The notes beneath the pieces are model-generated. The model made no database searches and was not told where the DNA came from. It worked only from the letters and a program-made list of their open reading frames with translations. DNA of 64,000 nt from Litoreibacter ascidiaceicola (GTDB lineage Bacteria; Pseudomonadota; Alphaproteobacteria; Rhodobacterales; Rhodobacteraceae). The translations under genes and the position numbers were made by a program. Of this stretch, positions 2,816 to 17,793 are shown piece after piece (the first letter of the stretch is position 1; each line of letters begins with the position of its first letter). The stretch lies in the NCBI RefSeq assembly GCF_900129235.1, contig NZ_FQUV01000005.1, positions 248,001-312,000 on the forward strand, given 5' to 3'.

Positions 2816-4633
2816 TTAAGCCGAGCGCGACGCGCGTTTGCGCTCGTGCGGGTCAAGGTGACGCTTGCGCAGACGGATGGCGTTCGGGGTGACCTCGACC
2901 AGTTCGTCATTGTCGATATAGGCAATCGCCTCTTCCAGCGACATGCGCACTGGTGTGGTCAGACGCACCGCTTCGTCAGTGCCGGAGGCCCGCACGTTGG
3001 TCAGCTTCTTGCCTTTCAGCGGGTTCACTTCCAGATCGTTCTCACGGGAATGCTCCCCGATGATCATGCCCTGATACAGCGCTTCTTGCGCGCCGATGAA
3101 GAACTTGCCACGGTCTTCAAGGTTGAAGATCGCATAGGCCACGGACACGCCGCTTTCCATCGAGATCAGAACCCCTGCACGACGGCCCGGAATTTCGCCC
3201 TTATGCGGCGCCCATTCGTGAAACACGCGGTTCAGAACGCCTGTCCCGCGCGTGTCGGTCAGAAATTCCCCGTGGTAGCCGATCAGGCCACGCGACGGCA
3301 CATGCGCGATAATGCGGGTCTTGCCGGCACCGGCAGGCTTCATCTCGGTCAGATCGCCTTTGCGAACGCCGGTCAGCTTTTCGATCACAACGCCCGAATA
3401 TTCGTCATCCACGTCGACAGTGACTTCCTCGATTGGCTCGTGGCGCACGCCGTCAATTTCTTGAAACAGAACCTGCGGGCGGGAGATCGACAACTCAAAC
3501 CCTTCGCGACGCATGTTCTCGATCAGAACGCCCATCTGCAATTCGCCACGACCGGCAACCTCGAAAGCGTCGCCACCGGGGGTGTCGCTGATCTTGATGG
3601 CGACATTGGACTCGGCTTCCTTCATCAGGCGGTCACGAATAACGCGTGACTGCACTTTCTTGCCGTCCTTGCCCGCCAGCGGGCTGTCATTGATCCCGAA
3701 GGTCACGGTAATGGTTGGCGGATCAATCGGCTGCGCAGGGATCGCTTCGCTCACTTCCACAGCGCAAAGCGTATCCGCCACGGTTGCCTTGGTCATACCG
3801 GCCAGCGAGACGATGTCACCGGCTTCAGCCACGTCGATAGGCTCTTGAGTCAAACCGCGCGCTGCCAGAATTTTTGTGGCGCGGAACTGCTCGACCTTGG
3901 TGCCGTCCAGCGACATTGCCTTAACAGTCTCACCGACTTTCAACGTGCCGGTTTCGACACGACCCGTCAGAAGACGGCCAATAAACGGATCGGCGCCCAA
4001 GGTGGTCGCCAGCATGCTGAACGGCTTGTCACGGTTTGCGACCTGCGCAGGGGCAGGCACATGCTCGACAATCAGGTCCATCAGGGCCGACAGGTCTTTG
4101 CGCGGGCCATCCAGCTCCATGTCAGCCCAGCCCGACCGGCCAGAGGCATACATCGACGGAAAGTCCAACTGATCGTCAGTCGCACCAAGGTTCGCGAACA
4201 GATCAAAACACTCGTCCAAAGCACGGTCAGGCTCGGCATCGCCCTTGTCTACTTTGTTCAAGACCACAATCGGACGCAGACCCAAGGCCAGCGCTTTTGA
4301 GGTTACGAATTTGGTCTGGGGCATCGGGCCTTCAGCCGCATCGACCAGCAGCACAACGCCGTCCACCATGGACAGGATGCGCTCCACCTCGCCGCCGAAA
4401 TCCGCGTGGCCAGGGGTGTCGACGATGTTCATACGAATGCCTTTCCACTCAACCGAGGTGGCTTTGGCAAGAATCGTAATCCCGCGCTCGCGTTCCAGAT
4501 CATTGCTGTCCATGGCGCGTTCGGCCACAGCCTGGTTCGCGCGGAAAGAGCCGGATTGCTTAAGCATTTCATCCACGAGCGTCGTTTTGCCGTGGTCAAC
4601 GTGAGCGATAATCGCAATATTGCGAAGGTCCAT
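2816..4633 (-). CDS. typA: translational GTPase TypA/BipA
   Basis: Ribosome-binding GTPase of the EF-G family that acts in 50S assembly, stress and low-temperature growth. The 605-aa length is normal. G1 is AHVDHGKTT (residues 10-18), the G3 DTPGHADF and G4 NKVD motifs are intact, and the C-terminus holds the TypA-specific domain ([18 protein letters not shown]). The ATG has AAGG about 8 bases upstream on the minus strand. It is monocistronic: a terminator follows and the upstream gene is across a 139-bp gap. Sequence is typical of the chromosomal backbone and marks the left edge of the lower-GC iodate-reductase island. Confidence 0.97.
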
Positions 4634-4772
4634 TAGACTAACCTTGTAAGGAGTGTTTGCGCGCGACCTATCGCACTAAGGGCGCAATGGCTAGTAAAAA
4701 GGGGGATCAAGACACAAGCAGAGCACATGCCGGCCGGGTTGCAGTGTGCAGTTAGTGTTGAAAGGTCGGATT

Positions 4773-5009
4773 TTAGAAGCGGCTGGAAGCCCGAAGCGGA
4801 CATTCAAGGATATAGCCTAGAACGCGGCGCTGTTCGTCGCGTATCTGTTCAGCAAGGCCTAATAGTGCTTGATTGCTTAGGCCATTCTTGCCTAATTCAA
4901 CGTAGAACAATCCAGTGTCGTGGCCAAAGAATTGATCAGTATCAAAGAGAAGAAAGTCATCGGAAGGAACTGGCAGGCATTCTTGTGTGAAGGCCGTTAC
5001 ATTTTTCAT
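4773..5009 (-). CDS. small hypothetical protein, 78 aa
   Basis: Low-GC small frame on the minus strand, with balanced protein-like composition: an acidic aromatic segment (DDFLLFDTDQFFGHDTGLFYVEL) written here as motifs DDFLLFDTDQ and TGLFYVEL, then an amphipathic helix around LSNQALLGLAEQIRDEQRR. A weak GGA lies about 6 bases upstream of the ATG. An opposite-strand frame over the same bases is less protein-like. It sits between typA and the HEAT-repeat gene of the idr cluster and could be part of the imported segment. Function unknown; the gene itself is moderately supported. Confidence 0.45.
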   Translation of the reverse strand: MKNVTAFTQECLPVPSDDFLLFDTDQFFGHDTGLFYVELGKNGLSNQALLGLAEQIRDEQRRVLGYILECPLRASSRF

Positions 5010-5053
5010 TCATGTCCAATCAGCACAAAATCCTCTAACCTTGTTCGCCTAGG

Positions 5054-7198
5054 CTAGCCGTAGACTGGCCTTGATCGCGCCACTGCTTCGAGAAGCACAT
5101 GGGCTCGTTTTGGCGAGATTTCAGTCTCTGCTAGAGCTTGAATGCTGAGAGTCAGAATTTCGTCGGATTTGCTGCAAGCATCCGCCAAAGTGTCGATGCG
5201 CTCTGCTTTCACCAAGGTGTCAAACACTAATGCAGCAAGACCGGTATCTTTCGACGCCAGAATTCTTTCGAGCGCGGCCACTCGCACGACCAATGTTGAA
5301 TCACTTAGCGCTGTTATTGCCTCACCATCGGATGAGCAATGGCGCAAGGCAATTGCGCGCACAAGGGCATCCGGGTCCAACAATGCGCCCCTGAGCGCAT
5401 GTGTGGTTTCCGGGGTCATCGCCAGAATATTTGCGGTAGCGGATCGAATGGCTGGATTTTCATCTGTAAGCCCAACCTCGATGTCGACCTCAGGTTGAGC
5501 GTTGAGTAGGCCCGCCTCTGCCCGCTGTTCAAGAGCGCGCCAAGCAGCGAGACGAAGGGCGTCATCTTCGCTTTCGCATGCGTCGAAAACGGCCGTTTCG
5601 ATTGCCCGATCATTTGCGCGGCCAGCGATGCCAAGCGCGACCACACGCAGGTCGTCGGCAATAGCGTCTGGACCTTCGACGGGTCGGCGATGTTTGCGTT
5701 TGGCACCGGATTCTTCGGGCGTGTCTTCAGCAAGCTCTGCTTCCACGAACTGCGATTCCTCGCTTTGAAGCGCAGACAGAGTCGACTGCGCTGAATCGAC
5801 CCCTTCACCCTTCTCTACTTCAACGATTTTTCCGTCACGCGAAATTTTGACATGTCCGCGAGGCGGAGTGTCAATCTTGGACATCGCTAGATCGGAGCCG
5901 TCTTCATCCACATGCGTCACAATCGCTTTGTCTGGGGACAACAATGTGCCGTCGATAGACATGGCCAATGCGTGGCCCGCAGATGAATCGCCGTCGTTGC
6001 ACCGTTCCACCAATCGCGTCAGCGCAACCGTGCGAACTTGCTGAGTTTCATTGCTCAACAACGCGACCAGACGCTCGGTCGACGATGCGTCGTTGAGGTG
6101 TGCCAATGATGAGACGGCGGCAAGCCGCGCCTCCAGCGGGCGCGTGGTATCGCGGACCAAATCCAACAACGGCTCCAAAGCCATTTCGGGAGCGAGGCGT
6201 GGCAAGATTCGTGCCGCGGCAGTGGCCAAGCTGGACTTGCTGATGGAGACCCATGCTAAAACGTTAGCTATCAAACTGGCGTGAAGTTCGACATCAAGCG
6301 GTAATTGCACTTGATCCAGCGCTGCGGCTTGCACCAACTCGCTTGGATCCGAGAGTGATTTGACCACAATATCGGGGCGAGCCGCGGCAAAATGAGACAA
6401 CGCCTCACATCGCAAATTTTCGTCCGGATCGTGCAGCGTCAATGCCTCAACGCGATCATCATCATTCTTCAGTAGTGGCAAGGCTAAACGCCTAACATCA
6501 GCAGCACTGTCCTTTACAATGACGTCAAGGTAATCGTGCAGGAGCTCCGAGCGCATGTTGGCCAAAGCCTCAAGTGCACGTTTGCGTCCGAGGCCTGTTT
6601 CCGTTTGCGCAATAGACAATAGCCAAACGGCTCCATCACTGCCCATAGCTGCCAGGGCGGCAAATACAGGGCCATCTAAGACTTGACCCTCTTCATCGTC
6701 GCGTGCGGCGAGGATGTCCTGAATGCTGCCCTTGGCATTCATTTCGCCCAATGCCTTGATCACCGCAACCTGCACATCCAGCCAATCATCCCAAGCATCA
6801 CTGTCGTCTTCCCATGCCACGTCATCGCTGGCGCGTGAGGCTACAAGTTGGCGAAATATCGGGATCGACGCTGCGTCATTTAGCTTGGCCAAGGCCTGAA
6901 TGGCTGCATGTTTGACTTCGCGCACGGGGTCTCCGCATAAGGATAGACGCAAGGTGTCTACCTCTTCCGGCTTGCCGCACAGCACCAAGGCGTCCATCGC
7001 ATCCGTGCGCACGTCCGGGTCTTCGTCCAGCAGGCTGGCCAAAAGGGCATCGTGCACCCGATTGTCGTGAAGCCCAATGGCGGCAACTGCACGGACGGCG
7101 CCGGTGCGGATAACCTCGTTGCCATTGGATAGGTGCTCCAAGATTAAACGAATTGGGTCGAGATGATCTGTGGCGGGTATGGCGCTGTTGCCCAACAT
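5054..7198 (-). CDS. large HEAT-repeat protein downstream of the iodate reductase genes, 714 aa
   Basis: Two HEAT solenoids, roughly residues 10-430 and 530-714, are separated by an acidic, low-complexity linker of ~100 residues containing EEKSGAKRKHRR-like charge switches (seen as EESGAKRKHRRPVEGP). Repeats of the form 'DPVREVKHAAIQALAKL' recur about every 31 residues. There is no signal peptide, so the protein should be cytoplasmic. I chose ATG 7198 because AGGAG lies 6 bases upstream; the longer frame would start inside the idrA stop region. It is the last gene of the P1-P2-B-A series, 70 bp after idrA. By position it may be a folding, cofactor-insertion or export-control factor for the molybdoenzyme, but this is inference from context only. 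Confidence 0.85.
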   Translation of the reverse strand: MLGNSAIPATDHLDPIRLILEHLSNGNEVIRTGAVRAVAAIGLHDNRVHDALLASLLDEDPDVRTDAMDALVLCGKPEEVDTLRLSLCGDPVREVKHAAIQALAKLNDAASIPIFRQLVASRASDDVAWEDDSDAWDDWLDVQVAVIKALGEMNAKGSIQDILAARDDEEGQVLDGPVFAALAAMGSDGAVWLLSIAQTETGLGRKRALEALANMRSELLHDYLDVIVKDSAADVRRLALPLLKNDDDRVEALTLHDPDENLRCEALSHFAAARPDIVVKSLSDPSELVQAAALDQVQLPLDVELHASLIANVLAWVSISKSSLATAAARILPRLAPEMALEPLLDLVRDTTRPLEARLAAVSSLAHLNDASSTERLVALLSNETQQVRTVALTRLVERCNDGDSSAGHALAMSIDGTLLSPDKAIVTHVDEDGSDLAMSKIDTPPRGHVKISRDGKIVEVEKGEGVDSAQSTLSALQSEESQFVEAELAEDTPEESGAKRKHRRPVEGPDAIADDLRVVALGIAGRANDRAIETAVFDACESEDDALRLAAWRALEQRAEAGLLNAQPEVDIEVGLTDENPAIRSATANILAMTPETTHALRGALLDPDALVRAIALRHCSSDGEAITALSDSTLVVRVAALERILASKDTGLAALVFDTLVKAERIDTLADACSKSDEILTLSIQALAETEISPKRAHVLLEAVARSRPVYG

Positions 7199-7228
7199 GA
7201 ACGGCTCCTGTCTGCGATTATATTTTGG

Positions 7229-7257
7229 TCTGTCCGGCCTTGGTCGAGCCGGACAGA
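7229..7257 (-). other. intercistronic RNA hairpin between idrA and the HEAT gene
   Basis: A perfect 10-bp stem (7229-7238 with 7248-7257) encloses a 9-nt loop in the 70-bp idrA-HEAT gap. No U-run follows on the minus strand, so it is not a classical terminator; an mRNA-stabilising or processing stem that sets different levels of the two genes is more likely. Confidence 0.55.
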
Positions 7258-7268
7258 TGCCGCGCAAC

Positions 7269-9944
7269 TCAGGCTATGTCGCGCCGCGCAAACGACATTG
7301 ACCGGAATTGGTTTTTGTATGGACTGACACCCATTTTCCGGACCTTACCGACGCCCATCTTGTAGTTGTAGTTGCCGCTGATCCAGTCAACGACACGTCC
7401 TGACAAAGCGTTTGCTGGCTGCGAAGTGTGCAAGAAATCCATGTAGCCAAGGTTCTCTTTGACCGCAGGGGTCACGATCGCCACGGCCGTAATCGACCCT
7501 TTCGTCAACTCCACATGGCCGTTTTTCAACAGCTCCGCAAAATCAAAATCGCTTCCTTCCACACCGACAATTGTATCGGTCTGAACAGGAATTCGGTCGG
7601 AATAAACCTGCACGTAGTCGCCACTTTCGATGCCACGCGCCTCGGCAACAGAAGGGTGGATTTCAATCCAGTTTTCCGGCCAGCGCTGCACAATATAGGG
7701 ACGACGTCGGTCGTCATATCCCGATTGCCAACGCTCGTTAATGCGTCCCGAGGAAATCCAGATCTCGTCTTCGCGAGGCTTCATCCACTCCCAATAGCTC
7801 GAGAACAAATCCCAAGGCGCTTTTTGAATGTTGCACTTGCCGGTCTGGCTGTTGAAATGGGTCAACTTCTTGTTGAACACATTGGCCCCCTGAGGACCGG
7901 TATCTGGAAGAACGCGATTCACATCGTGCAGCCGTTTAGTTCCCTCCAAAGAGCCGTCTGGAAGCATCAAGACTGGGCCTTGAATGCCGTTCGTCCCGAA
8001 TTCACCGAATTTTTCGTGCAGGGTCTTGCCTTCACGTTTCGCCGCAACGTGGACCATGTTGAAGTCTTTACGAGACCCGCGAGAGTGGCGCGCACCCTCT
8101 TCCAACACGTCGTTAGAGTCCTTCCAGTCGAACCCCTCAAAGCCCATCTTTTTGGCCAGATTGGCGATGATCCACCAATCGGGTTTTGCTTCGCCGGGGG
8201 CGTCGTAGAATTTGGGGTACAACCTCAGGCGACGTTCGCCATTTGCACGGGTGAAAGTTTCTTCTCCCCAACCCGAGGCCGGGAACACGATGTCCGCGTA
8301 GCGCGCACCGATCGGGTCGACCAGATAAATGTCTTGATTCCAAACAACCATACCGCCGCTATCAGCACGCCGCTTTAACGTGTCGATGATATCCTGCTTC
8401 TCGAAGCTCTGGACTTGATGCGGGTTGCGTGTCGTTAGCTCATCGAACTTGGCTTGCAACGATTGGCTGCCGCACATCGCTTGAACCCAAGTTGTACCTA
8501 TGACGTGGGCTAGCCGTGTATGGCCGCTCATCAGGTAGCGGTCTGTGTCCATAGCGCGACGCCGCCGACCGGGCAGCTTTTCGGGTGACTTATTGCGAGG
8601 GTACCCACCACCGCGAAGACCACCACGCTGGTGACCGCCTGCACGCCCGATAACCTGACCGGGACGCCCGCCTGCACCAACCGCAATCCCCAGAGCGGAA
8701 ATTGCTTGAGTGTTGCCAGTGTTATTGGACCAATAGAACCCTTTCTCGATCATGATCGAGGTTTTGGGGCGAGTGCCGTCCTCTTTGGGTTTGGCCATCC
8801 ATTCGGCGGCAGTATATATTTTCTGCACATCGATTTGGGCAATCTCGGCGGCTTTCTCAGGAACAGTATAGTCCTGGGCTAACAGCCATTCTTTCCAATC
8901 CTCAAAGCCATCAGTCTGAAATTTGCCCCAAGTTGTGCGCCACTGCCACGGCGTGTTACGCGTGCCTTGACCAAAGCCGGACGAGCTTTCCCACTTGTTG
9001 TTCACCCATTTCTCGATCCATTCGTCATCCTGCCAGCCGTTTTCGACGATGACGCGGGCAATCGCCAAAACCACGGGCAAATCGGTGCCGGGCTGGATGT
9101 CCAGAACGATGCCGCCGTTCTTTTCAGCGAATGCCGTGCCCGCAGTTCGGCGTGGCAGCATGAAGATGGTTTTTTGACCTCCTTGGATGGCAGGCATGAT
9201 GTAGTCGGTGAACAAGATTGTCTTGGATTCGTAGGGGTCCGTTCCGCACATCATCAGCGTATCAGCATCTGCCCAGTCGTCGTAGCTGGGTCCAAAATTA
9301 TCGAACCCTGCATCCCTGAAGCCCGGTGTCGATGATACGTCGGAAGGTGTGTCATGAAATGTGAAGTTCGCGGTGTTAATATGGCGAAGCGCATATTTCG
9401 TGATGGCATATGTGTTCTCCATATACCCGTAAGAGAACGTCTTCACGCCGTAGGCGTTAGTGCCGTGTTTTTTGAGCACGTGGTTGCCAACCTCAGCAGC
9501 AATATCCAGTGCGAAGTCCCAAGTAACAGGCATCAGCACCCCGAACATACGCACCATTGGTGATTTTAGGCGGTCACGGGTCGGTGTCTGAGGGTTATAA
9601 ACTTTCTGCGCCAGCGCACCGCCACGAATGGACGAATTCCCGGAATAATTCACGAAATCGGTGTCTTTGTCGGGAATGATTACGACGTGATGCGGCTCAC
9701 CATTGTGGAGCACGATGTTGTGTTGGTTCGGCGCCACCCAAGCCCCCAAAGGAGACACTGGAAAATCTTCACCGAAGGCGTTCTGGTCGGCCGCCGGGCC
9801 ACCATTGCGCCCGCCTGCAACGGGCCAGCGGTAAACCTTGTAACCGCAGGCAACGATACAGTAATCGCAGGCGGTAGAAATCACATCAGCGTCTGGTGGA
9901 GGCAACGGGATGGATTGTTCCGGCACATAATATGGTGTGGACAT
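7269..9944 (-). CDS. idrA: iodate reductase catalytic subunit, Mo-bisMGD enzyme of the AioA/IdrA family
   Basis: DMSO-reductase-superfamily molybdoenzyme, 891 aa, closest in pattern to arsenite oxidase AioA. Cys26, Cys29 and Cys33 (CDYCIVAC) plus a Ser in NSSIRGG (residues 103-109) in place of the fourth Cys predict a [3Fe-4S] cluster, as in AioA. No TAT signal is present; export would be by hitch-hiking on the Rieske subunit. Arg434 and His438 (RAGGHQRGG) match two AioA substrate-site residues. The region matching AioA His195/Glu203 instead reads TPGFRDAGFDN (206-216), lacking that His and Glu. This, with the Rieske protein and two di-haem peroxidases upstream, points to IdrA, which reduces iodate in the periplasm. 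A strong GAGGAGG lies before the ATG. Arsenite oxidase remains the main alternative; substrate not proven. Confidence 0.85.
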   Translation of the reverse strand: MSTPYYVPEQSIPLPPPDADVISTACDYCIVACGYKVYRWPVAGGRNGGPAADQNAFGEDFPVSPLGAWVAPNQHNIVLHNGEPHHVVIIPDKDTDFVNYSGNSSIRGGALAQKVYNPQTPTRDRLKSPMVRMFGVLMPVTWDFALDIAAEVGNHVLKKHGTNAYGVKTFSYGYMENTYAITKYALRHINTANFTFHDTPSDVSSTPGFRDAGFDNFGPSYDDWADADTLMMCGTDPYESKTILFTDYIMPAIQGGQKTIFMLPRRTAGTAFAEKNGGIVLDIQPGTDLPVVLAIARVIVENGWQDDEWIEKWVNNKWESSSGFGQGTRNTPWQWRTTWGKFQTDGFEDWKEWLLAQDYTVPEKAAEIAQIDVQKIYTAAEWMAKPKEDGTRPKTSIMIEKGFYWSNNTGNTQAISALGIAVGAGGRPGQVIGRAGGHQRGGLRGGGYPRNKSPEKLPGRRRRAMDTDRYLMSGHTRLAHVIGTTWVQAMCGSQSLQAKFDELTTRNPHQVQSFEKQDIIDTLKRRADSGGMVVWNQDIYLVDPIGARYADIVFPASGWGEETFTRANGERRLRLYPKFYDAPGEAKPDWWIIANLAKKMGFEGFDWKDSNDVLEEGARHSRGSRKDFNMVHVAAKREGKTLHEKFGEFGTNGIQGPVLMLPDGSLEGTKRLHDVNRVLPDTGPQGANVFNKKLTHFNSQTGKCNIQKAPWDLFSSYWEWMKPREDEIWISSGRINERWQSGYDDRRRPYIVQRWPENWIEIHPSVAEARGIESGDYVQVYSDRIPVQTDTIVGVEGSDFDFAELLKNGHVELTKGSITAVAIVTPAVKENLGYMDFLHTSQPANALSGRVVDWISGNYNYKMGVGKVRKMGVSPYKNQFRSMSFARRDIA

Positions 9945-9956
9945 TGGTGTTCCTCC

Positions 9957-10544
9957 TCAACCTTGCAGATTGTCAAAACGGCCGTAGATCAGGCCAAACA
10001 TGCCGACGGCGTAAATGTCGTCGCCATCCAATTCCAAAAGGACCTGTGGTAGCGATTGGTAAGCCTGACCGGAGATGAATATCCCGTGGCGAGTCAGATC
10101 AAAGGTGGTCAAGTGCAGCGGACAAGGCCCTAGCGCTTTGTCTGCGGCTTGATAGGTGCCTTGCAGCGGACCGCCTTGGTGGGTGCAGGTATAGTTGAAG
10201 GCCACAACATCCCTGTTTGGTCCCAGGCCTCCCCCGGCTTCCTTACCCAGCTTAACCAAAATGCTTTCAGCGTATTCCCCCGAGTCCGGATATTCGAAAT
10301 CAAACGGTTCATCGACAACCAGCTCGCTTAGCTTCGCGATGAACTTGCGCTGATAGGTCGACACGACGGCTGGTGTTTGTGCCTGCGGCATGCCCGGAAT
10401 GCCAACCATTACGACGGTTGTAGTGATGCCACTGGTCAGCAAAAACTGGCGACGGTTCATCAAGCAGTTGCGAGTACCTGCCTTCTCCGCTTCACCATTT
10501 TCGCCATTAATGGCAGCAGCGATTTTGGGATCAAGATCGTTCAT
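9957..10544 (-). CDS. idrB: iodate reductase Rieske [2Fe-2S] subunit
   Basis: Small electron-transfer subunit, 195 aa. Twin-arginine signal NRRQFLLTSG (Arg31-Arg32) follows an unusually long 28-residue N-terminal stretch; the start at 10544 is chosen for the AGGAGACAGGA upstream, while the Met at the twin-arginine site has no ribosome site. Rieske ligands are Cys120-x-His122 and Cys141-x2-His144 (CTH and CPLH). The two extra cysteines that form the disulfide in bc1 Rieske proteins are absent (CTHQGGP, CPLHLTTFD), as in some AioB proteins, which should lower the redox potential. It lies 12 bp upstream of idrA and 16 bp downstream of a peroxidase gene, in one operon. It would carry IdrA across the membrane and pass electrons from cytochrome c. 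Confidence 0.88.
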   Translation of the reverse strand: MNDLDPKIAAAINGENGEAEKAGTRNCLMNRRQFLLTSGITTTVVMVGIPGMPQAQTPAVVSTYQRKFIAKLSELVVDEPFDFEYPDSGEYAESILVKLGKEAGGGLGPNRDVVAFNYTCTHQGGPLQGTYQAADKALGPCPLHLTTFDLTRHGIFISGQAYQSLPQVLLELDGDDIYAVGMFGLIYGRFDNLQG

Positions 10545-10560
10545 TGGTCCTGTCTCCTGT

Positions 10561-11685
10561 TCAATTGTTGGCCGCGACGGGCAAAGGTTGCATTTCGGGC
10601 AGGTCTGGCTCGGTGGGCAAAATTTCATCCCCGCTCAAGCTTTCGAGGAAGGCCACCAGATCATTCACCTCGCTATCAGACAGGCCAAGCGGCTCAATCA
10701 GGGGTGATTTATTGTCGGCAAACTCGTTCTCACCGCCGCCTGCATTGTAGAATTCCACAACGTCGTGCAGCGTCTCAATCATGCCGTTATGCATGTAGGG
10801 ATAGGTGTATTTGGTATAGCGCAGGCTTGGCGTGCGGAACTTGCCCTTGTCGGATTTCTGCTTGGTGCGGAAATAGAGACCTGGATCGTCCTTGGTCGTC
10901 CGATACATTTCCTCGGTGGATCCTTTGGCCAAAAGTTCGAACCGGAACGTGATCTGCGCGATGGCATCATCCTGCCAGCCGTCATAGGCGGGAACGCCAA
11001 GATTATGATAGCTTTCATCGGTCAGTAACGGGCCAGAATGACAGGCAATGCATTTGGCTTTACCGACAAACAGATCCAAGCCGCGTTTTTGCGCGTCATC
11101 CAGCGCGTCATCGTCTCCGTCCATGTAGATATCGAACGGTGTGTCCGTTTGCACGATCGAGCGCTCATAGGCAGCGATCGCCATATAAGCATGCCGGACA
11201 TTGGGCCAGTCATCGCCAAAAACCTCTGCGAAGGCTTTGCGGTATTCAGGCACAAAGGCAAGGCGCGCTTCCATCATGTCGTCTTCGCCATTGCCCGCGA
11301 CGCCGCCGCGTGCGGCTGAACGCGCCTGATGTTCAAGCGATCCGGACGAACCAGCCCAAAACAGCTTGCCGTAGTAAGCTGAATTTACAATTGTCTGGCT
11401 ATTGCGCCAGTGTGTCGTCCCGGGATAGCCAAAGCTAATTTTATCCTGAATGGCCCAACCGGCATCAGGAAGGTGGCACGACGAACACGGCATAGCGTTG
11501 TTGCCTGAAAGGATTGGGTCAAAGAACAGTTTCTCACCCAAAGCGATCTTTTCTGGGGTCATGGCGTTGTCTGCCGGAATTGGTGGTGGGCCAAGAGCGG
11601 CCAAACCCTCGGGTCGATCTTGAGCCATTATGGCGGTAGCCGTCAAAGTGGTCAGGCCAAAGGCGAATGCGGTTAAGTGTTTCAT
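10561..11685 (-). CDS. idrP2: di-haem cytochrome c peroxidase of the iodate reductase operon
   Basis: Periplasmic bacterial cytochrome c peroxidase/MauG-type protein, 374 aa, with a Sec signal peptide ending near AMAQ (residues 1-21; IMAQD). Two haem sites are visible: CSSCH at residues 67-71 and CIACH in the second half (GKAKCIACHSG). The C-terminal YPYMHNGMIETLHDVVEFYNAGGG block is typical of the family (seen as YMHNGMIETLHDVV). TAAGGAGG precedes the ATG. In idr clusters such peroxidases are thought to remove H2O2 or reactive iodine intermediates formed during iodate reduction. Whether it corresponds to P1 or P2 of other organisms cannot be settled here; I named it by order of transcription. 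Confidence 0.85.
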   Translation of the reverse strand: MKHLTAFAFGLTTLTATAIMAQDRPEGLAALGPPPIPADNAMTPEKIALGEKLFFDPILSGNNAMPCSSCHLPDAGWAIQDKISFGYPGTTHWRNSQTIVNSAYYGKLFWAGSSGSLEHQARSAARGGVAGNGEDDMMEARLAFVPEYRKAFAEVFGDDWPNVRHAYMAIAAYERSIVQTDTPFDIYMDGDDDALDDAQKRGLDLFVGKAKCIACHSGPLLTDESYHNLGVPAYDGWQDDAIAQITFRFELLAKGSTEEMYRTTKDDPGLYFRTKQKSDKGKFRTPSLRYTKYTYPYMHNGMIETLHDVVEFYNAGGGENEFADNKSPLIEPLGLSDSEVNDLVAFLESLSGDEILPTEPDLPEMQPLPVAANN

Positions 11686-11697
11686 GGTCCTGCCTCC

Positions 11698-12771
11698 TTA
11701 GTTTTTGGCGTTGTTCCAGTCTTCAATTGGCACGTAGTCGTAATCATCCTCGCGCCAGACATATTCATCGGTGTCGAAGCTCTCGCCCGACATTGCTTCG
11801 AGATAGGCAACCAGATCGGCCTTCTCGCTGGGCACCAGTCCCAAGGGCTTCAGGCGCGCGTCTTTCAGCGGGTCGTTCCCGCCACCAGCGTCGTAAAAGT
11901 CCACGACTTCCTCGAGCGTCTCGAACGCACCGTTGTGCATGTAAGGCGCGGTCCACACCAACTCGCGCAATGTCGGCGTCAGGAAGCTGCGTTTGGTGTC
12001 ATCTTTGTGCGTGCGGATATAGGCCCCAAGATCTTCACGCAGGTTCATGTAGTTCTCGACTCCCATGAACTTGGCGTAGGTCACAAAAGCCGAGTGCCGC
12101 TCAGGGCTGGCCCAGATATCGGGATTGTCCGGCACACCGGTGTTGTGCGGCTTGTCATCAGTGTAGCGCGCACCAGCATGGCACGAGGAACAACTGCCTT
12201 TGCCTTCGAAGATACCTTTGCCGCGCTCTGCCGCTGAACTCAGAGTGCCCGTGTCGACCGCTGCACCGCGCGATACGATTGTTTTCATGAAATCCATCAA
12301 GGCGTTACGAGCGCCACCATTTCCGGGCTCTGACATGCCAGCCGCAGCGAACATTTCCACATAGATTGGGTCCTGCTTTAAACGCTCCTGCATGATACGC
12401 ATGTCCATGTTCATCAGGTAGGTTTCAGTAATCATCTCACGCGCGACATCGTTCAGGTTTGTCCCCAGACGTCCATCATGCAACCAAGCGTCGCGATAAC
12501 CTACATTGGCCAACGTCGGAGCATTTCTGAAATGCCCGGCCCCGGTATATGCTTGGCTCAAAGCCTCGCCATCTGTGAACGCCTTGTCCGGCTGGTGGCA
12601 GCTTGAGCAGCTGAGCGTGGTATCCCCCGAAAGGCGCGTGTCGTAGAACAGGCGTTTGCCCAGTTCGGCACGCGCAGCATTCACATCCATTGGAGGGATA
12701 GGAACCACGTCCTGTGCGATTGCAGCCGTACCGGCTAGCAGTGAGCAAATCAAAGTGAGTTTTTTTAGCAT
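11698..12771 (-). CDS. idrP1: di-haem cytochrome c peroxidase, first gene of the iodate reductase operon
   Basis: Second periplasmic di-haem peroxidase, 357 aa, with a Sec signal peptide (MLKKLTLICSLLAGTAAIAQ) and haem motifs CSSCH at residues 55-59 and CSSCH again in the central part (GSCSSCHAG). It is a diverged paralogue of the following peroxidase, sharing the YMHNGAFETLEEVVDFYDAGGG block (YMHNGAFETLEEV). ATG 12771 is preferred over the in-frame ATG 7 codons upstream because GGGGAGG lies just before it. Only 12 bp separate it from the second peroxidase. It heads the P1-P2-B-A-HEAT series. Expected role: removal of peroxide or hypoiodous acid made by IdrAB. Confidence 0.85.
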   Translation of the reverse strand: MLKKLTLICSLLAGTAAIAQDVVPIPPMDVNAARAELGKRLFYDTRLSGDTTLSCSSCHQPDKAFTDGEALSQAYTGAGHFRNAPTLANVGYRDAWLHDGRLGTNLNDVAREMITETYLMNMDMRIMQERLKQDPIYVEMFAAAGMSEPGNGGARNALMDFMKTIVSRGAAVDTGTLSSAAERGKGIFEGKGSCSSCHAGARYTDDKPHNTGVPDNPDIWASPERHSAFVTYAKFMGVENYMNLREDLGAYIRTHKDDTKRSFLTPTLRELVWTAPYMHNGAFETLEEVVDFYDAGGGNDPLKDARLKPLGLVPSEKADLVAYLEAMSGESFDTDEYVWREDDYDYVPIEDWNNAKN

Positions 12772-12802
12772 GAATGCCTCCCCTTGGGTCATTCCAGCAG
12801 GC

Positions 12803-12834
12803 TTTGATCAATTCGGCTGTTTCGACTGATCAAA
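12803..12834. promoter_or_regulatory. paired TTTGATCA repeat upstream of idrP1, candidate operator
   Basis: TTTGATCA (12803-12810) and its inverted copy TGATCAAA (12827-12834) lie 32-63 bases before the idrP1 start. Because TGATCA is itself palindromic the pair is also a direct repeat with 22-bp spacing, about two helical turns, which suits an OmpR-type regulator dimer. The halves resemble FNR half-sites, but the spacing is not that of an FNR box. Confidence 0.4.
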
Positions 12835-13002
12835 CCTATTGTAAGCGATCGCACTTGCACGCGGTCGCCGTGAGAATATTCAGCAGGCGGACAGTTGCAT
12901 CAAATGACACAGGGACTCAGCCTGACCACAGCCTAGGCGAACCGCTGCTCCCAATTGTTGCGGGCAGCATGGTCTTATGTGACTTCTTATGACGAAATGC
13001 GA

Positions 13003-13033
13003 CGGCCTGAGCCGCGCTAGGCTTCTCAGGCCG
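13003..13033 (-). terminator. hairpin after the sensor kinase gene, possible terminator
   Basis: Perfect 9-bp stem (13003-13011 with 13025-13033) and 13-nt loop, beginning 8 bases past the kinase stop. No clear U-run follows on the minus strand, so termination may be partial or Rho-dependent. It separates the kinase from the idr operon. Confidence 0.4.
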
Positions 13034-13040
13034 GACTTAC

Positions 13041-15257
13041 CTAGGAGGCGGCGTCAATCATTGCCCGAATGCTGCGCGCCAGTTTTGCTGGATCCACCGG
13101 CTTGTTCATTAAATCGACGGCAGGCCCGGCAATCTCTAACCCTGACGGATTATATCCAGTGCAGATTATCACCGGAATATCTGGGCGCAGTTCGCGCACC
13201 GCATTCACCAACTCCTCGCCGCTCATCTGTGGCATGACCATGTCGGAGATAAGCAAATCAGGGCGTTGAGGTTCTGCGCGAATATGCTCAAGCGCAGTTA
13301 GCGGTGATGTAAACGCCTCGACTTGATAGCCGAGGCGCAGTAACACCCGACGGAATGTCGCCGCGACTTCTGCCTGATCATCCACCACAACGATGCGCTC
13401 CCGGCCACGTGGGATATCCGTGTTTTCAAGTTTAGGTTGGGAGGTGTCGCTTTCCGTGCCCGGCAAGTAAATGGTAAATTTTGCCCCCTGCTTTGGCTTG
13501 CTCGTGACATCGATTGTCCCGTCCAACTCTTCAATCAGCCCGAATACCACCGCGAGGCCAAGCCCAGAGCCTTTGCCCAAGGGCTTTGTCGTGAAAAACG
13601 GATCAAACAGGTGCTGCAGCGTTTCGGTGCTCATTCCGGGACCATTGTCGGCAACTTCAAACAGAATCCACCCGCCTGGTCGGGAGGCCAGCCCTTCTGG
13701 CAAATCATCGTACAAGGTTCGAGCCAAGACTCGAATTTCACCCAACGACCCGCCAATAGCTTCAATCGAATTGCGGCATAAGTTCATAACGATTTGATGC
13801 AGGTGTGTTTCATCACCAAGCACAATCAGCTTATCTTCAACTGCTGTGCAGTCCAGTGTGATCGTCGGAGGCATTGAAGCATTCAAGAGCCTAGATACTT
13901 CGTCAATGATTGCGCCAAAATCTGTCGGCTTTCGAAGTCCTGGTTCTCGGCGCGCGAATGTCAGCAGTCCGCGTACAAGGCTCTGAGCGCGTCGCGCCGC
14001 AATATCGATCTGCTCGATCTCGACCGCAATTTCACTTCGTTCCGGCGCATCCAGTGCAGCCAGATGCGCCGCACCTACTATGGTTGTTAAGACATTATTA
14101 AAGTCGTGCGCAATCCCGCCTGCCAAGAGCCCAACGGCCTCGAGTTTCTGAGCCCGTGCGACCTGCTCGCGGGCTTGCCTTTTCTCGGTCACGTCTTCGC
14201 CGATGCCAATGTAGTTCTGAACTGTGCCATCTGCGGCGACGAGTGGAAGGATTTTGGTCTCAGCCCAATAACTACCCCCATCCTTACTCCGGTTGCGAAA
14301 AACACCCCGCCAGTCGAGCCCTTTTGCCAAACGCTTACGGATAATTTCGTATTCGGCTGGGGGCGTGTCACCAGATTGCAAGAACTGAGGCGTCTGGCCA
14401 ATGACCTCGTCGCGTGACCATCCAGTTAGCTTCTCGAATTGACGATTGGCATAAATGATCCGAGCATCAGTATCGGTCATAAAGATTGTAGCGGGGCTTT
14501 GTTCTACCGCGCGTGCCAGCCGCTCATTGGACTGTTGTAACGCGCGCCGCTTCTTCAATTCGTCAGACAATTGAGACAATGCGCCTCGCATATCCCGCAG
14601 CAGAAGGATCAATAGATAGCCAATCAACAGCGACGACATAACAAGTCCCGCTATGGACGCAAAGCCAATCCAGATTAGCGTTTGCCCGCGACTAACCGCA
14701 CTCAGCATCCGTTCCGCACTGACTTGTCGATTAGCAGTCCAAAGGCGTTCCAGTTCTGCAAGCGCCTGGATCGCGGCAGCGTCATCTATTCTGACAGCAT
14801 CGTCAGTTCGCGCGACATCCCACTGCTCTTCTGCGGCCTGAACAGCAAGTGGTAGGATAGCGCTGTATTGTTTAATCGTTCTCCGAACCATGCCGATCGC
14901 GTTGCGCTCATCCGGGTCGACTGTGGCTTCCAAATATTCGGCCGTCGTCGTCATGAACTGGTCAATCTGCTCTCTTGTGCGATCCAAGTACACTTCTTCG
15001 CGGCGCAGCACATAGTTTTTGAAATTGTGAATAATTCCGCCATATCCCAGATGCCCGCGAATGGAACTGATCCAGACGCCTTTGCGACCAACGCCATCTG
15101 AATAATCAGACCAACTGGCTTCGACTTCACGAAACTGGGCCCTCGTTTGCAGGCCAAGATATATTCCAAGCGAGACAGTCAGAAGCAATAGCATCACTGA
15201 CGCGAGACGAATTCGTTGGCTCCGCGACAAGGTGTTTTTGTTCACAGCCTCAGGCAT
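13041..15257 (-). CDS. membrane-bound PAS hybrid sensor histidine kinase, candidate idr regulator
   Basis: 738 aa from ATG 15257, chosen over a GTG five codons upstream because GAGGT lies 8 bases before it. Order of parts: TM helix 18-36, ~155-residue periplasmic sensor region, TM helix about 193-220, PAS about 249-362, H-box with phospho-acceptor His384 (GGIAHDFNN), GHKL ATPase with the NGPGM (about 538) and GSGLGL motifs, and a C-terminal receiver with Asp672 (LISDMVMPQMSG). The architecture is that of a hybrid kinase, but no Hpt domain is attached. A divergent OmpR-type regulator gene starts 84 bp away and is the natural partner. The periplasmic sensor region is unrecognised; position next to idrP1 suggests it senses iodate, iodide or an associated redox state. 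That is inference. Confidence 0.9.
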   Translation of the reverse strand: MPEAVNKNTLSRSQRIRLASVMLLLLTVSLGIYLGLQTRAQFREVEASWSDYSDGVGRKGVWISSIRGHLGYGGIIHNFKNYVLRREEVYLDRTREQIDQFMTTTAEYLEATVDPDERNAIGMVRRTIKQYSAILPLAVQAAEEQWDVARTDDAVRIDDAAAIQALAELERLWTANRQVSAERMLSAVSRGQTLIWIGFASIAGLVMSSLLIGYLLILLLRDMRGALSQLSDELKKRRALQQSNERLARAVEQSPATIFMTDTDARIIYANRQFEKLTGWSRDEVIGQTPQFLQSGDTPPAEYEIIRKRLAKGLDWRGVFRNRSKDGGSYWAETKILPLVAADGTVQNYIGIGEDVTEKRQAREQVARAQKLEAVGLLAGGIAHDFNNVLTTIVGAAHLAALDAPERSEIAVEIEQIDIAARRAQSLVRGLLTFARREPGLRKPTDFGAIIDEVSRLLNASMPPTITLDCTAVEDKLIVLGDETHLHQIVMNLCRNSIEAIGGSLGEIRVLARTLYDDLPEGLASRPGGWILFEVADNGPGMSTETLQHLFDPFFTTKPLGKGSGLGLAVVFGLIEELDGTIDVTSKPKQGAKFTIYLPGTESDTSQPKLENTDIPRGRERIVVVDDQAEVAATFRRVLLRLGYQVEAFTSPLTALEHIRAEPQRPDLLISDMVMPQMSGEELVNAVRELRPDIPVIICTGYNPSGLEIAGPAVDLMNKPVDPAKLARSIRAMIDAAS

Positions 15258-15341
15258 AGAAATCGACCTCACTTAGGAGTCGGTTGTAAACGCCTCCGGA
15301 ATTCGCAAGATAGCAACAAGTAAAAAAATGGGAAGAAGTGG
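15258..15341. promoter_or_regulatory. divergent promoter region of the two-component system
   Basis: The 84-bp gap between the oppositely transcribed kinase and regulator genes must contain both ribosome sites (GAGGT for the kinase, GGAAGAAG for the regulator) and at least the regulator promoter. I could not pick out convincing -35/-10 boxes. Confidence 0.4.
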
Positions 15342-16079
15342 ATGTGCAACCGCGTTCTAGTTGTCGATGATGACGGTCAGTTGACCGCCTTCTTGAAGAG
15401 GTTTCTGGACAAGCAGGGGTTCAAAACCGACATTGCCGCAACTGGACGTGACGCGCGTCATTTGCTGAAGTCGGACACATATGCGTTGGTAGTACTTGAT
15501 TTAAATCTGCCAGATGCAGACGGTTTGGAAATAGCCGGTGAAATCCGACACGAGTCCCAGACACCCGTCATAATGCTAACCGCGCGCGACGAAGTTTATG
15601 ACCGAATTGTCGGCCTGGAGATCGGCGCGGACGACTACGTCACCAAACCATATGAACCACGAGAACTGCTGGCGCGGATCAGGTCAGTATTAAGACGGTC
15701 CACGTCTAATGAGCCGAACAACGAACCAATAGAAGCGCAAACGATACGCTTCATGGGACTGGAACTTAGCCTTTCTCAACGCACACTAATCAATGCGTCA
15801 GATAACCACGCCATCCCACTGACCAACACAGAGTTTACGCTGCTCCATGCATTAGTTCAGCATGCGAATAAAGTGCTTTCGCGTGCGGCAATCATGGATA
15901 CGCTGTATGGAAACAGCGTCACAGTAACTGACCGGGCGATCGATGCCCATGTCACTAGGCTGCGGCGAAAGATTGATATCAATGATGGTAGTGCGTCGTT
16001 AATCCGCGCAGTGCATGGAAAAGGATATGTATTTGCAGCCGAGCTCGAATTGGTAAACTTTGCCCGCGAAGAGCAGTAG
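15342..16079 (+). CDS. OmpR/PhoB-type response regulator
   Basis: 245-aa transcription factor. Receiver domain with the acidic pocket Asp9-Asp11, phospho-acceptor Asp53 (VVLDLNLPDADG), the Thr of MLTA and Lys of VTKPYEP; then a winged-helix DNA-binding domain with the recognition-helix signature DRAIDAHVTRLRRKI. Length is normal. It is transcribed away from the hybrid kinase gene, so the two form a two-component system. GC is visibly lower than in the genes to the right, like the idr genes, and it marks the right edge of the island. Likely targets are its own divergent promoter and the idr promoter region. Confidence 0.92.
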   Translation: MCNRVLVVDDDGQLTAFLKRFLDKQGFKTDIAATGRDARHLLKSDTYALVVLDLNLPDADGLEIAGEIRHESQTPVIMLTARDEVYDRIVGLEIGADDYVTKPYEPRELLARIRSVLRRSTSNEPNNEPIEAQTIRFMGLELSLSQRTLINASDNHAIPLTNTEFTLLHALVQHANKVLSRAAIMDTLYGNSVTVTDRAIDAHVTRLRRKIDINDGSASLIRAVHGKGYVFAAELELVNFAREEQ

Positions 16080-16437
16080 TCCTGCATCGCTGACTCTTAC
16101 ATTAACCTCCGCGTATGTCTGCTCCGCGCCCGTCGCGCATGTTGTGGCCTCAGACTGGCAGCGCACCGCCCCAAACGCATCACACATTTCGGCCCAGCCC
16201 AAAGTATGCTCGCAACCGCTCGGGCATCCCGTGCGTCAAAGCCACACACTTCCTTAACCATCCTTACCGACCGCCCCGTTAACCCCGCCCCAGCCACACA
16301 TGTTGCCCGACGCAAAGCCGACAGGGTGCAGACGGTTTGCAGACCGCCGAAACCCCAGCATTTACTGGCGTTAACCTTCCGATTCGCGGACAAGGTGTTG
16401 CTGGCGGCCTGTCAGCGTCCGCGGCATTAACTTCCGC
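16080..16437. other. intergenic region, no gene seen
   Basis: 358 bases of C-rich sequence (plus strand) between the convergent regulator and transglycosylase genes. Frames here are Arg/Ala-rich shadows without ribosome sites. I see no strong hairpin, tRNA or repeat. It is the right junction of the lower-GC island. Confidence 0.5.
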
Positions 16438-17793
16438 CTACCGCAACCGCTTTAAGATATCCAAGCTCGCATACCCGTCCGGCACCAACCCGACAGACCG
16501 CTGGAACCCCCGCACCGCCTCGATTGTCAGCGGCCCGATCTTGCCGTCGATTTTCTTGGTGTCGAAGCCCTTGGCGGTCAGCAGCCGCTGCATCTCTTTG
16601 CGCTCTGCAAACTTCAAGGCACGGTCGCCGCGCGGCCACCCCGAGCGGATCGCCGGTTTACCCTTCAACCGGTCCGACAAATGCCCGACCCCGATCACAT
16701 AGGCATCCGCGGTGTTGTAGCGCTCGATGACCGAGAAATTCTTGAAGATCATAAACGCCGCCCCCTTTGCCCCCGCAGGCAACAGGATCGACGCCTGCCC
16801 ATGGTTGGTGACGTTCTGGCCATTCAACCCCTTGATCCCCAAAGCCCCCCATTCTGCAGGCGATTTCAGTATCTTGCGGTTCGCCAGCGCGTAGTCGAAC
16901 CCTTGAGGCAAGGTGACCTCCACCCCCCAAGGCTGGCCCTTCACCCAACCGAACTTCGCCAGATAATTAGCCGTCGACGCCAGCGCATCCGTCGGGTCAT
17001 CCCCCCAAATGTCGCGCTTGCCGTCGCCGGTGAAATCCACCGCGTAGTCCAGATAAGATGTCGGGATAAACTGTGTATGCCCCATCGCACCGGCCCATGA
17101 GCCGGTCATACTGCGCGGGGCGACGTCACCGGATTGCAGGATTTTCAGACCCGCAATCAACTGCTGCTCGAAAAACGCGCCGCGCCGCGCGTCAAATGCC
17201 AAGGTCGCAAGCGAGCCCACCAGATCCTTTGAGCCGCGGAACGTACCATAGGCGCTCTCCAGCCCCCACACGGCAGCCACAACCTCCTTGTCGACACCAT
17301 AACGCGCCTCGATCCGGTCCAGCGTGCTGCGATGCTTGGCCACCGCCGCCTTGCCATTGGCAATCCGCACGTCGCTGGCCGCACTATCGAGATAGTCCCA
17401 AAGCGTCTTGGTAAATTCGGACTGGTTGCGATCGCGCTTGATCACATCCGCATCATAGCGGACACCCTGAAACGCCTGATCAAAGGTCGCCCCGGAAATG
17501 CCATTGGCAAGCGCGCGCGGGCGGAACCCTTTGATCCATGCCTGAAACCGCGCATTGGATGCGACTAAATCAACCGGAGCAGGCTCTGCGGGGGCCGCCT
17601 CGCGCACAACGCCGCGCAAACGCGGGCGCAAGGACCGCTCCACCGCCAAGCGCGAGCTCGTAGGCGGAATGACCAGCGCCGCCTGCACCGCTGGCACGTC
17701 AAAGGCAGGCCGCAATATCGGGCGCTTCGACCCCTCGGCCAAGGCGCCCTGCGCCATGCAGATTGCGACTGTTATCGCAGTAAGAATTCTCAT
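16438..17793 (-). CDS. lytic murein transglycosylase, MltB-like (GH103) with peptidoglycan-binding domain
   Basis: Periplasmic enzyme that cleaves peptidoglycan glycan strands with 1,6-anhydro product formation. 451 aa from ATG 17793, which starts a clean signal peptide (MRILTAITVAICMAQGALA) and has AGGTG upstream; the longer frame adds 17 polar residues. The GH103 core carries the catalytic Glu in VWGLESAYG and the blocks GAMGHTQFIPTSY and DGDGKRDIW-like FTGDGKRDIWGDD. The C-terminal ~60 residues form a PG_binding_1 domain (IDGKIGPLTIEAVRGFQ). Gene 64 bp downstream of rnr on the same strand. Unlike classical MltB it has no lipobox. Confidence 0.92.
   Translation of the reverse strand: MRILTAITVAICMAQGALAEGSKRPILRPAFDVPAVQAALVIPPTSSRLAVERSLRPRLRGVVREAAPAEPAPVDLVASNARFQAWIKGFRPRALANGISGATFDQAFQGVRYDADVIKRDRNQSEFTKTLWDYLDSAASDVRIANGKAAVAKHRSTLDRIEARYGVDKEVVAAVWGLESAYGTFRGSKDLVGSLATLAFDARRGAFFEQQLIAGLKILQSGDVAPRSMTGSWAGAMGHTQFIPTSYLDYAVDFTGDGKRDIWGDDPTDALASTANYLAKFGWVKGQPWGVEVTLPQGFDYALANRKILKSPAEWGALGIKGLNGQNVTNHGQASILLPAGAKGAAFMIFKNFSVIERYNTADAYVIGVGHLSDRLKGKPAIRSGWPRGDRALKFAERKEMQRLLTAKGFDTKKIDGKIGPLTIEAVRGFQRSVGLVPDGYASLDILKRLR

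Follow-up and report, generated by a model that had tools for sequence, protein, structure and literature searches.

The genome of the roseobacter Litoreibacter ascidiaceicola carries an island of seven main genes that very probably encodes an iodate reductase (Idr), and the HEAT-repeat and two-component genes of this island look dedicated to the four iodate-reductase genes. The island lies in a window, meaning the whole stretch of DNA analysed, of 64,000 nucleotides (contig NZ_FQUV01000005.1, forward-strand positions 248,001 to 312,000); coordinates below count from its first letter. It bears on the question of which bacteria turn iodate into iodide, and what triggers it. The original prediction described a complete four-gene operon in a roseobacter-type genome. 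All four genes and their Pfam domains are present at the predicted place on the minus strand, in the order P1, P2, idrB, idrA, and the predicted gaps of 12-16 bp are 12, 16 and 12 bp with the starts chosen here. However, the unit is larger than this operon, as it also includes a HEAT gene and a two-component system. The features, with the evidence for each, are:

7269..9944, minus strand: idrA, molybdopterin catalytic subunit, 891 aa (open reading frames (ORFs), Pfam, motifs, trees, active-site column)
9957..10544, minus strand: idrB, Rieske subunit, ATG start, ORF open to 10628 (Pfam, NCBIfam, Tat-like motif)
10561..11685, minus strand: P2, second di-haem protein of the operon, IdrP-type (ORF, Pfam, structure search, alignment)
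11698..12771, minus strand: P1, first di-haem protein of the operon, IdrP-type, ORF open to 12792 (ORF, Pfam, structure search, alignment)
5054..7198, minus strand: HEAT-repeat protein, 714 aa (Pfam, homologues, predicted structure)
13041..15272, minus strand: hybrid histidine kinase, likely start 15257 (Pfam, predicted structure; transmembrane helices by eye)
15342..16079, plus strand: OmpR/PhoB-type response regulator, divergent from the kinase (ORF, Pfam)
12978..13004, plus strand: putative operator of three direct repeats (TGTGAC, TATGACG, TGCGACG) with a 10-bp period (word counts, scoring)
4671..16467, no strand: island (empty site in the same-genus genome G171, lower GC content)

Iodate reductase or arsenite oxidase

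IdrA contains PF18465, PF00384 and PF01568 (3Fe-4S, molybdopterin and dinucleotide-binding domains), IdrB matches PF00355 at 21.3 bits (cut-off 20.3), and both di-haem proteins match PF03150 (CCP_MauG). A motif search found two CXXCH motifs in each di-haem protein, a Tat-like (twin-arginine translocation) RRQFLL motif and CxH...CxxH in IdrB, and the cluster motif CX2CX3CX70S in IdrA (Cys26, Cys29, Cys33, Ser104). The same cluster motif is stated for Azoarcus sp. DN11 in PMC10149662. By eye and motif search, P1 and P2 have Sec-like N-termini, IdrB has its Tat motif and IdrA has no signal motif. Purine-rich stretches lie ahead of most of the operon gene starts. The genome has a single large subunit of the AioA/IdrA type.

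Which enzyme is this? NCBIfam scores the window IdrA with TIGR02693 (arsenite oxidase) at 430.5 bits (cut-off 359.05) and IdrB with TIGR02694 at 115.4 bits (cut-off 95.65), and the nearest solved structures of IdrA are AioA chains; the name therefore had to be tested. Two classes of IdrA can be distinguished among the relatives. Those at 58-95% identity to the window protein (class I) account for 73 of the 74 loci in the main relative set, the remaining one (L077) being Aio. Class II is about 50% identical and occurs in Azonexus, in Thiothrix and, within the family of the window, in four genomes; the Vibrio plasmid IdrA (66% identity) groups with class I. A survey of 394 genomes of the family found 46 that match IdrA at E<=1e-50, and these were classed by identity, some also being placed on a tree, as 18 class I, 4 class II (one of which also has an Aio-like match) and 24 Aio-like only.

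The check put forward in the original prediction, placing the 891-aa protein on a tree of IdrA and AioA proteins, was carried out with 47 of 103 usable proteins (27 class-I Idr including the window, 5 class-II Idr and 15 Aio), a set that leaves the named reference IdrA sequences (SCT, IR-12) outside. The first tree, a quick IQ-TREE run with support from the Shimodaira-Hasegawa-like approximate likelihood-ratio test (SH-aLRT) only, also had two outgroup rows from the window's own genome. The 15 Aio rows formed one clade (SH-aLRT 99) and the 32 Idr rows another (99). The window protein fell within class I, beside Roseobacter sp. H9, whose IdrA is the nearest at 95% identity and bears out the roseobacter-type assignment; a Nitrospinaceae row (L063) branched outside the remaining class I. 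A second tree, which omitted three Aio rows (L177, L180, L181) and one outgroup row, again separated the 12 Aio rows (99) from the 32 Idr rows (91). The protein thus groups with IdrA and outside the supported AioA clade, so the outcome that the original prediction named as refuting, a position inside that clade, did not occur.

One active-site residue points the same way. The arsenite-site residues of AioA are His195, Glu203, Arg419 and His423. The Glu column holds Glu in all 15 Aio rows, Ser (24) or Ala (3) in the 27 class-I rows and Asp in all five class-II rows. Since the window IdrA has Ser in place of Glu, it lacks the full four-residue AioA set.

The gene neighbourhood also supports an iodate reductase. 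The original prediction took the order of the genes to be reversed with respect to described clusters, and this was wrong: the order is P-P-B-A on one strand in 65/65 tested loci (77 were looked at, 12 being untested for short flank or missing genes), and, according to PMC8801600, idrP1P2 comes before idrAB in every case. A reversed order is therefore rejected, and 'idrABP1P2' is a name, not a gene order. The P-P-B-A loci include those on Vibrio and Azonexus plasmids, the latter belonging to the other IdrA class. The recurrence of the same set and order in every tested locus suggests that the arrangement is more than chance.

Four loci deserve mention in their own right. A class-II IdrA fragment (L185, 9472-10842, a 457-aa frame in genome G191) looks like a remnant, and neither idrB nor di-haem genes were found in the 18 kb examined at that locus. 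Two class-I loci (L071 and L073) are nested among alphaproteobacterial ones but come from metagenome-assembled genomes labelled Deltaproteobacteria and Binatia, which may reflect transfer or a binning error. One class-I locus without the kinase pair (L187, 13117-16369) has a LysR-type regulator and a PF00141 peroxidase-family protein upstream of idrP1.

Are the two di-haem proteins peroxidases? Among solved structures, 6e1c ('Di-heme enzyme') comes closest to each of them, and the top-scoring NCBIfam models, MbnH (TIGR04039) and MauG (TIGR03791), stay below their cut-offs. In bacterial cytochrome c peroxidase, Met is the axial ligand of the second haem. The aligned position is Tyr in 94/94 aligned rows for each query, in place of the Met of the classical peroxidases; the row sets of P1 and P2 overlap, some P1-set rows being P2 genes, and 21 of the 94 rows in each set are cut at the locus end and lack one CXXCH. 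Because of this Tyr, 'cytochrome c peroxidase' may be a loose label.

Tree, neighbours and active-site residue together make iodate reductase, rather than arsenite oxidase, the best reading of the four-gene operon, and a very probable one at the level of sequence. In addition to the NCBIfam scores and the AioA-like structures, several points weigh against it. The other three arsenite-site residues (His, Arg, His) are kept in 47/47 rows. IQ-TREE warned of long branches meeting in the first tree, and the outgroup branch of the second is implausibly long (9.78), so that the root is unsure. As far as has been shown, no measured activity could be tied to any class-I IdrA sequence. The respirers confirmed by the time of PMC8801600 all fell within one small clade, whose accessory genes (a two-component system, c551 and moaA) make it look like class II. 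The three marine strains with measured iodate reduction in PMC11445184 compare with the window at the level of gene set.

Could class I be an IdrA-like enzyme for another oxyanion (bromate, chlorate or selenate, for example), with iodate only incidental? The two classes do differ at the active-site column (Ser/Ala versus Asp), the HEAT partner distinguishes class I from class II, and the missing assay for class I would fit as well. However, the four genes and their order are shared with class-II loci, three alphaproteobacterial class-II loci have a kinase/regulator and operator of the same type, and many of the hosts are marine. Iodate is the abundant halogen oxyanion of the sea. We consider another substrate quite unlikely. 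It is very improbable that the enzyme is an arsenite oxidase, as automatic models name it: the scores and the three retained arsenite-site residues favour this, but it is rejected by the position outside the supported Aio clade in both trees, the altered fourth residue in 27/27 class-I rows, and neighbours that include two di-haem genes in 65/65 tested loci and, unlike the neighbourhood in NT-26, no AioX- or Ars-type protein among the seven main island proteins (Pfam). That current automatic models label class-I Idr enzymes as arsenite oxidase is a warning for annotation.

HEAT protein, two-component system and putative operator

The HEAT gene begins 70 bp downstream of idrA on the same strand. 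It adjoins idrA in this way in 63 of the 67 loci whose sequence extends 800 bp or more beyond idrA (three of them plasmid loci), the exceptions being L057, Vibrio L079, Azonexus L080 and Thiothrix L081. Among the 394 family genomes, within which co-occurrence with idr was assessed, 17 from 17 genera encode the protein (E<=1e-10); all have class-I idr, and each has the HEAT gene directly after idrA. In the eighteenth class-I genome of the family, idrA is broken near a contig end. The HEAT profile had no match in three class-II loci (L182-L184). Within the family searched, the HEAT protein therefore provides a second marker that tracks class I but neither class II nor arsenite oxidase.

The HEAT protein is acidic (isoelectric point 4.3-5.2 in 42 rows), and hydropathy gave no clear N-terminal signal peptide. 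Its predicted model consists of two alpha-solenoids with a disordered linker between them (mean predicted local distance difference test score, pLDDT, 87.4). Structural relatives in the PDB are generic solenoids (artificial alphaRep, importins, the PP2A scaffold and CAND1) and were set aside as giving no functional hint. The best reading, to which its association with idrA points, is that the protein acts in the cytosol, where it may assist IdrAB in folding, in acquiring the cofactor or in being exported.

Alternatively, the HEAT protein might be a passenger with no working part. Its sequence is more divergent than that of the enzyme, with 20-56% identity to the window protein among 41 orthologues versus 58-95% for IdrA in class-I loci, and class II does without it. 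Yet in 17/17 HEAT-bearing family genomes, from as many genera, a class-I idrA is adjacent, and a Nitrospinota relative has the protein at the same place. A passenger is unlikely, and a helper of IdrAB remains our preferred reading.

On the Vibrio sp. THAF190c megaplasmid (L079), an ORF resembling HEAT (4028-6061), with a weak profile match (E 6e-4), lies upstream of the operon in divergent orientation, and a cupredoxin-type protein is encoded downstream of the idr genes (11753-12196). In the window, a 78-aa ORF (4773-5009, minus strand) lies 45 bp after the HEAT gene and is the sole further candidate noted on the island. It matches L005 (14951-15091) with 45% identity over 47 aa at the same place, and the match is confined to L005 and duplicate records.

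Upstream of the operon lie a hybrid kinase, with a helical N-terminal sensor part followed by PAS, HisKA, HATPase and REC domains, and a divergent OmpR-type regulator. The pair is found in this arrangement in 26 of the 61 loci scored; these 61 include one Aio locus, and in L007 the pair lies beyond the scoring distance limit. Class-II loci L182-L184 have the same arrangement, with kinases 49-57% and regulators 50-52% identical. Of the 394 family genomes, 15 contain a strong sensor match (E<1e-30), and every one of these 15 has idr (12 class I, 3 class II); weaker matches (best 2e-19) are seen in family genomes without idr. The sensor part is predicted to be a helical bundle (pLDDT 92.7), in which all 30 rows of the alignment share R67, G71, G73, G74, H77, K80, N81 and R85. 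A NarX/NarQ fold was considered and rejected, as structural matches were weak (first NarQ at rank 22, E 0.32). The kinase ends in REC, and a histidine phosphotransfer (HPt) protein was not seen among the island's main genes (Pfam).

Where might the regulator bind? The region between 12,782 and 13,058 showed no blastn similarity among the promoter regions of six loci compared, and for this reason an operator was sought by word counts. TGTGACG (either strand) occurs in 15 of 27 promoters, whereas no 7-mer exceeded 8 in 20 shuffles, and the words are arranged as direct repeats with a 10-bp period. OmpR-type regulators bind tandem direct repeats about one helical turn apart. The putative operator of the window lies about 207 bp upstream of the P1 start. 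No excess of sigma-70 promoters or terminators over shuffles was found in the island.

The operator follows the pair. Scored over three repeats with 21 informative bases in 450 bp of upstream sequence, 24 of 29 loci with the pair reach the threshold of 15, versus 1 of 35 without it and about 1% of shuffles. A first count with 350 bp gave 21/29 and 1/35 (L029 omitted for short upstream sequence), and in an early score that included the spacer, L016, L018 and L062 were within shuffle range, with L015 and L072 marginal. As the motif was derived from part of the counted set, the proper controls are the class-II promoters and the loci that lack the pair. All three class-II promoters outside motif discovery have the operator (0/500 shuffles as good), and the site is absent from L013 and L023, which are pair-less with IdrA 91-93% identical to the window. 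Four of the 35 pair-less loci (L030, L051, L064, L065) have less than 3 kb upstream, so that absence of the pair is only partly seen there. The pair-less exception with an operator is L038, whose genome encodes the kinase on another contig, and this led to a kinase search of 26 genomes. The genomes of 23 of the 35 pair-less loci gave three matches at E<=1e-20 (L038, L075 and, weakly, L049); the same search also matched L029 (kinase on another contig) and the pair-bearing controls L004 and L010. L075 has the kinase and no operator by score, which counts against a strict rule.

Might the pair serve another regulon and be present here by chance? It adjoins idr in fewer than half of the scored loci, the REC domain of the kinase was found with no HPt protein among the main island genes, and genomes without idr have weaker sensor matches (E from 2e-19 upwards). 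Against this, the 372 family genomes that lack an IdrA-clade gene contain no sensor match at E<1e-30, the presence of the operator tracks that of the pair across loci, and the operator occurs once in the window's own genome at <=2 mismatches, although the reversed control pattern also occurs once. There is only a slight chance that the pair is unrelated. The preferred reading is that the kinase senses iodate or its effects and that the regulator binds the repeats and activates the idr operon, which is probable.

Probable acquisition of the island

Is the island an insertion? A genome of the same genus, G171, has matches to typA (window 2826-4670) and lytT (from 16468) separated by 75 bp, whereas the window has an 11.8-kb insert between these genes; searches of G171 for IdrA, HEAT and the sensor gave no match under the thresholds applied. 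The GC content of the island is 54.4% (4680-16440) versus 60.0% for the rest of the window. Its seven main genes are those for HEAT, IdrA, IdrB, P2, P1, the hybrid kinase and the OmpR-type regulator. In Roseobacter sp. H9, the DNA that matches the window reaches into all seven of these genes, which are arranged there as in the window, and typA, lytT and RNase R were not found in the 22.7 kb examined at that locus. The island is best read as a single, horizontally acquired insertion; loss in G171 is less likely because of the lower GC content and the patchy spread. Insertion at a tRNA gene was rejected, as the window has no tRNA. No direct repeat of at least 9 bp was found between 4601-5060 and 16071-16480, and integrases were not searched for. 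Elsewhere in the window, 22171-23751 (plus strand) encodes a Hint-domain protein with an Ig-like domain.

Proposed mechanism and comparison with known systems

How might the island work? The two Sec-exported di-haem proteins and the Tat-exported IdrAB would act in the periplasm, a proposal whose chemistry is borrowed from published models for relatives. The Rieske subunit IdrB would take electrons from a soluble c-type cytochrome, and IdrA would relay these through its 3Fe-4S cluster to the molybdenum site, at which iodate would be reduced to hypoiodous acid (HIO). The latter would disproportionate to iodide and iodate, and the di-haem proteins would remove peroxide. The model in PMC8692401 likewise has four electrons passed to iodate to give HIO, disproportionation and peroxide removal. 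A rival model for SCT requires a chlorite dismutase-like protein; the chlorite dismutase family has no match in this genome, which fits the disproportionation model, by absence only.

The HEAT solenoid, probably cytosolic, may help IdrAB to mature or to pass export control, a role suggested by association for which the chances appear roughly even. The hybrid kinase would sense iodate or its effects, and the OmpR-type regulator would bind the 10-bp-period repeats upstream of idrP1 and switch the operon on. In an aerobic roseobacter, iodate is likely to serve as an electron sink when oxygen is short, by analogy with other marine aerobes for which this was proposed in PMC11445184.

Class-I iodate reduction may be a self-contained seven-gene module, with a HEAT solenoid dedicated to one molybdenum enzyme. 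Its two-component system would be an iodate switch, and two IdrA classes differing at the active site would share both the sensor and the decameric operator of that switch. This broader picture is tentative, and we hold it with somewhat more doubt than confidence. Several observations tell against it: the role of the HEAT protein is drawn from association only, and class II does without the protein; structural matches to the sensor are weak (best E 0.022); 35 of the 61 scored loci are without the pair; and five of the 29 pair loci fall below the operator threshold (L016, L031, L061, L066, L069).

The four-gene idr core is already known, whereas no report was found of the HEAT gene, the kinase/OmpR-type pair or its operator in the idr literature, taken as text rather than figures or supplements. 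For the HEAT-repeat gene near idr, this covers PMC8692401, PMC10149662, PMC10989891, PMC10746228, PMC8801600 and PMC9732548. Nothing relevant was found in published text linking HEAT repeats to iodate, arsenite oxidase or molybdoenzyme chaperones. Induction of idrA has been published from 0.1 uM iodate, with no regulator named in the parts seen. If the proposed role is true, the HEAT protein would be a kind of maturation factor for which we found no report. The 27-bp putative site and the named genes of the island are testable targets.

Several known systems resemble the island in part. Arsenite oxidase AioBA, with AioXSR, likewise combines a Rieske protein with a 3Fe-4S molybdenum enzyme and has the small-subunit gene first; it differs in that the NT-26 region has aioX and no di-haem gene, and in the Glu at the arsenite site. 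MauG/MbnH-type di-haem enzymes have Tyr at the axial position of the second haem, as here, but the pair in the window accompanies a molybdenum enzyme. Oxyanion sensors of the NarX/NarQ type likewise have a helical periplasmic part in a membrane kinase and a conserved basic stretch, although the structural match is weak.

The closest counterparts are the described idrABP1P2 clusters. Those of Pseudomonas sp. SCT, Denitromonas sp. IR-12, Azoarcus sp. DN11 and Aromatoleum TC-10 encode the same four products in the order P-P-B-A (PMC8692401, PMC8801600, PMC10149662), with the same Sec/Sec/Tat/no-signal pattern and cluster motif as the window. DN11 and TC-10 also have two-component genes near idr, as at the window, and PMC8801600 suggests iodate sensing for the system in this group. 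Judged by accessory genes (sigma-54 type regulator, c551, moaA), these clusters resemble the class-II Azonexus locus L080, which, unlike the window, has no HEAT gene and has Asp at the active-site column. Roseovarius azorensis, Notoacmeibacter marinus and Aliiroseovarius sediminilitoris, all marine aerobes of the Alphaproteobacteria, also carry these four genes in putative idr clusters. Iodate reduction was measured in all three, and the idr genes of R. azorensis were induced by iodate and low oxygen (PMC11445184).

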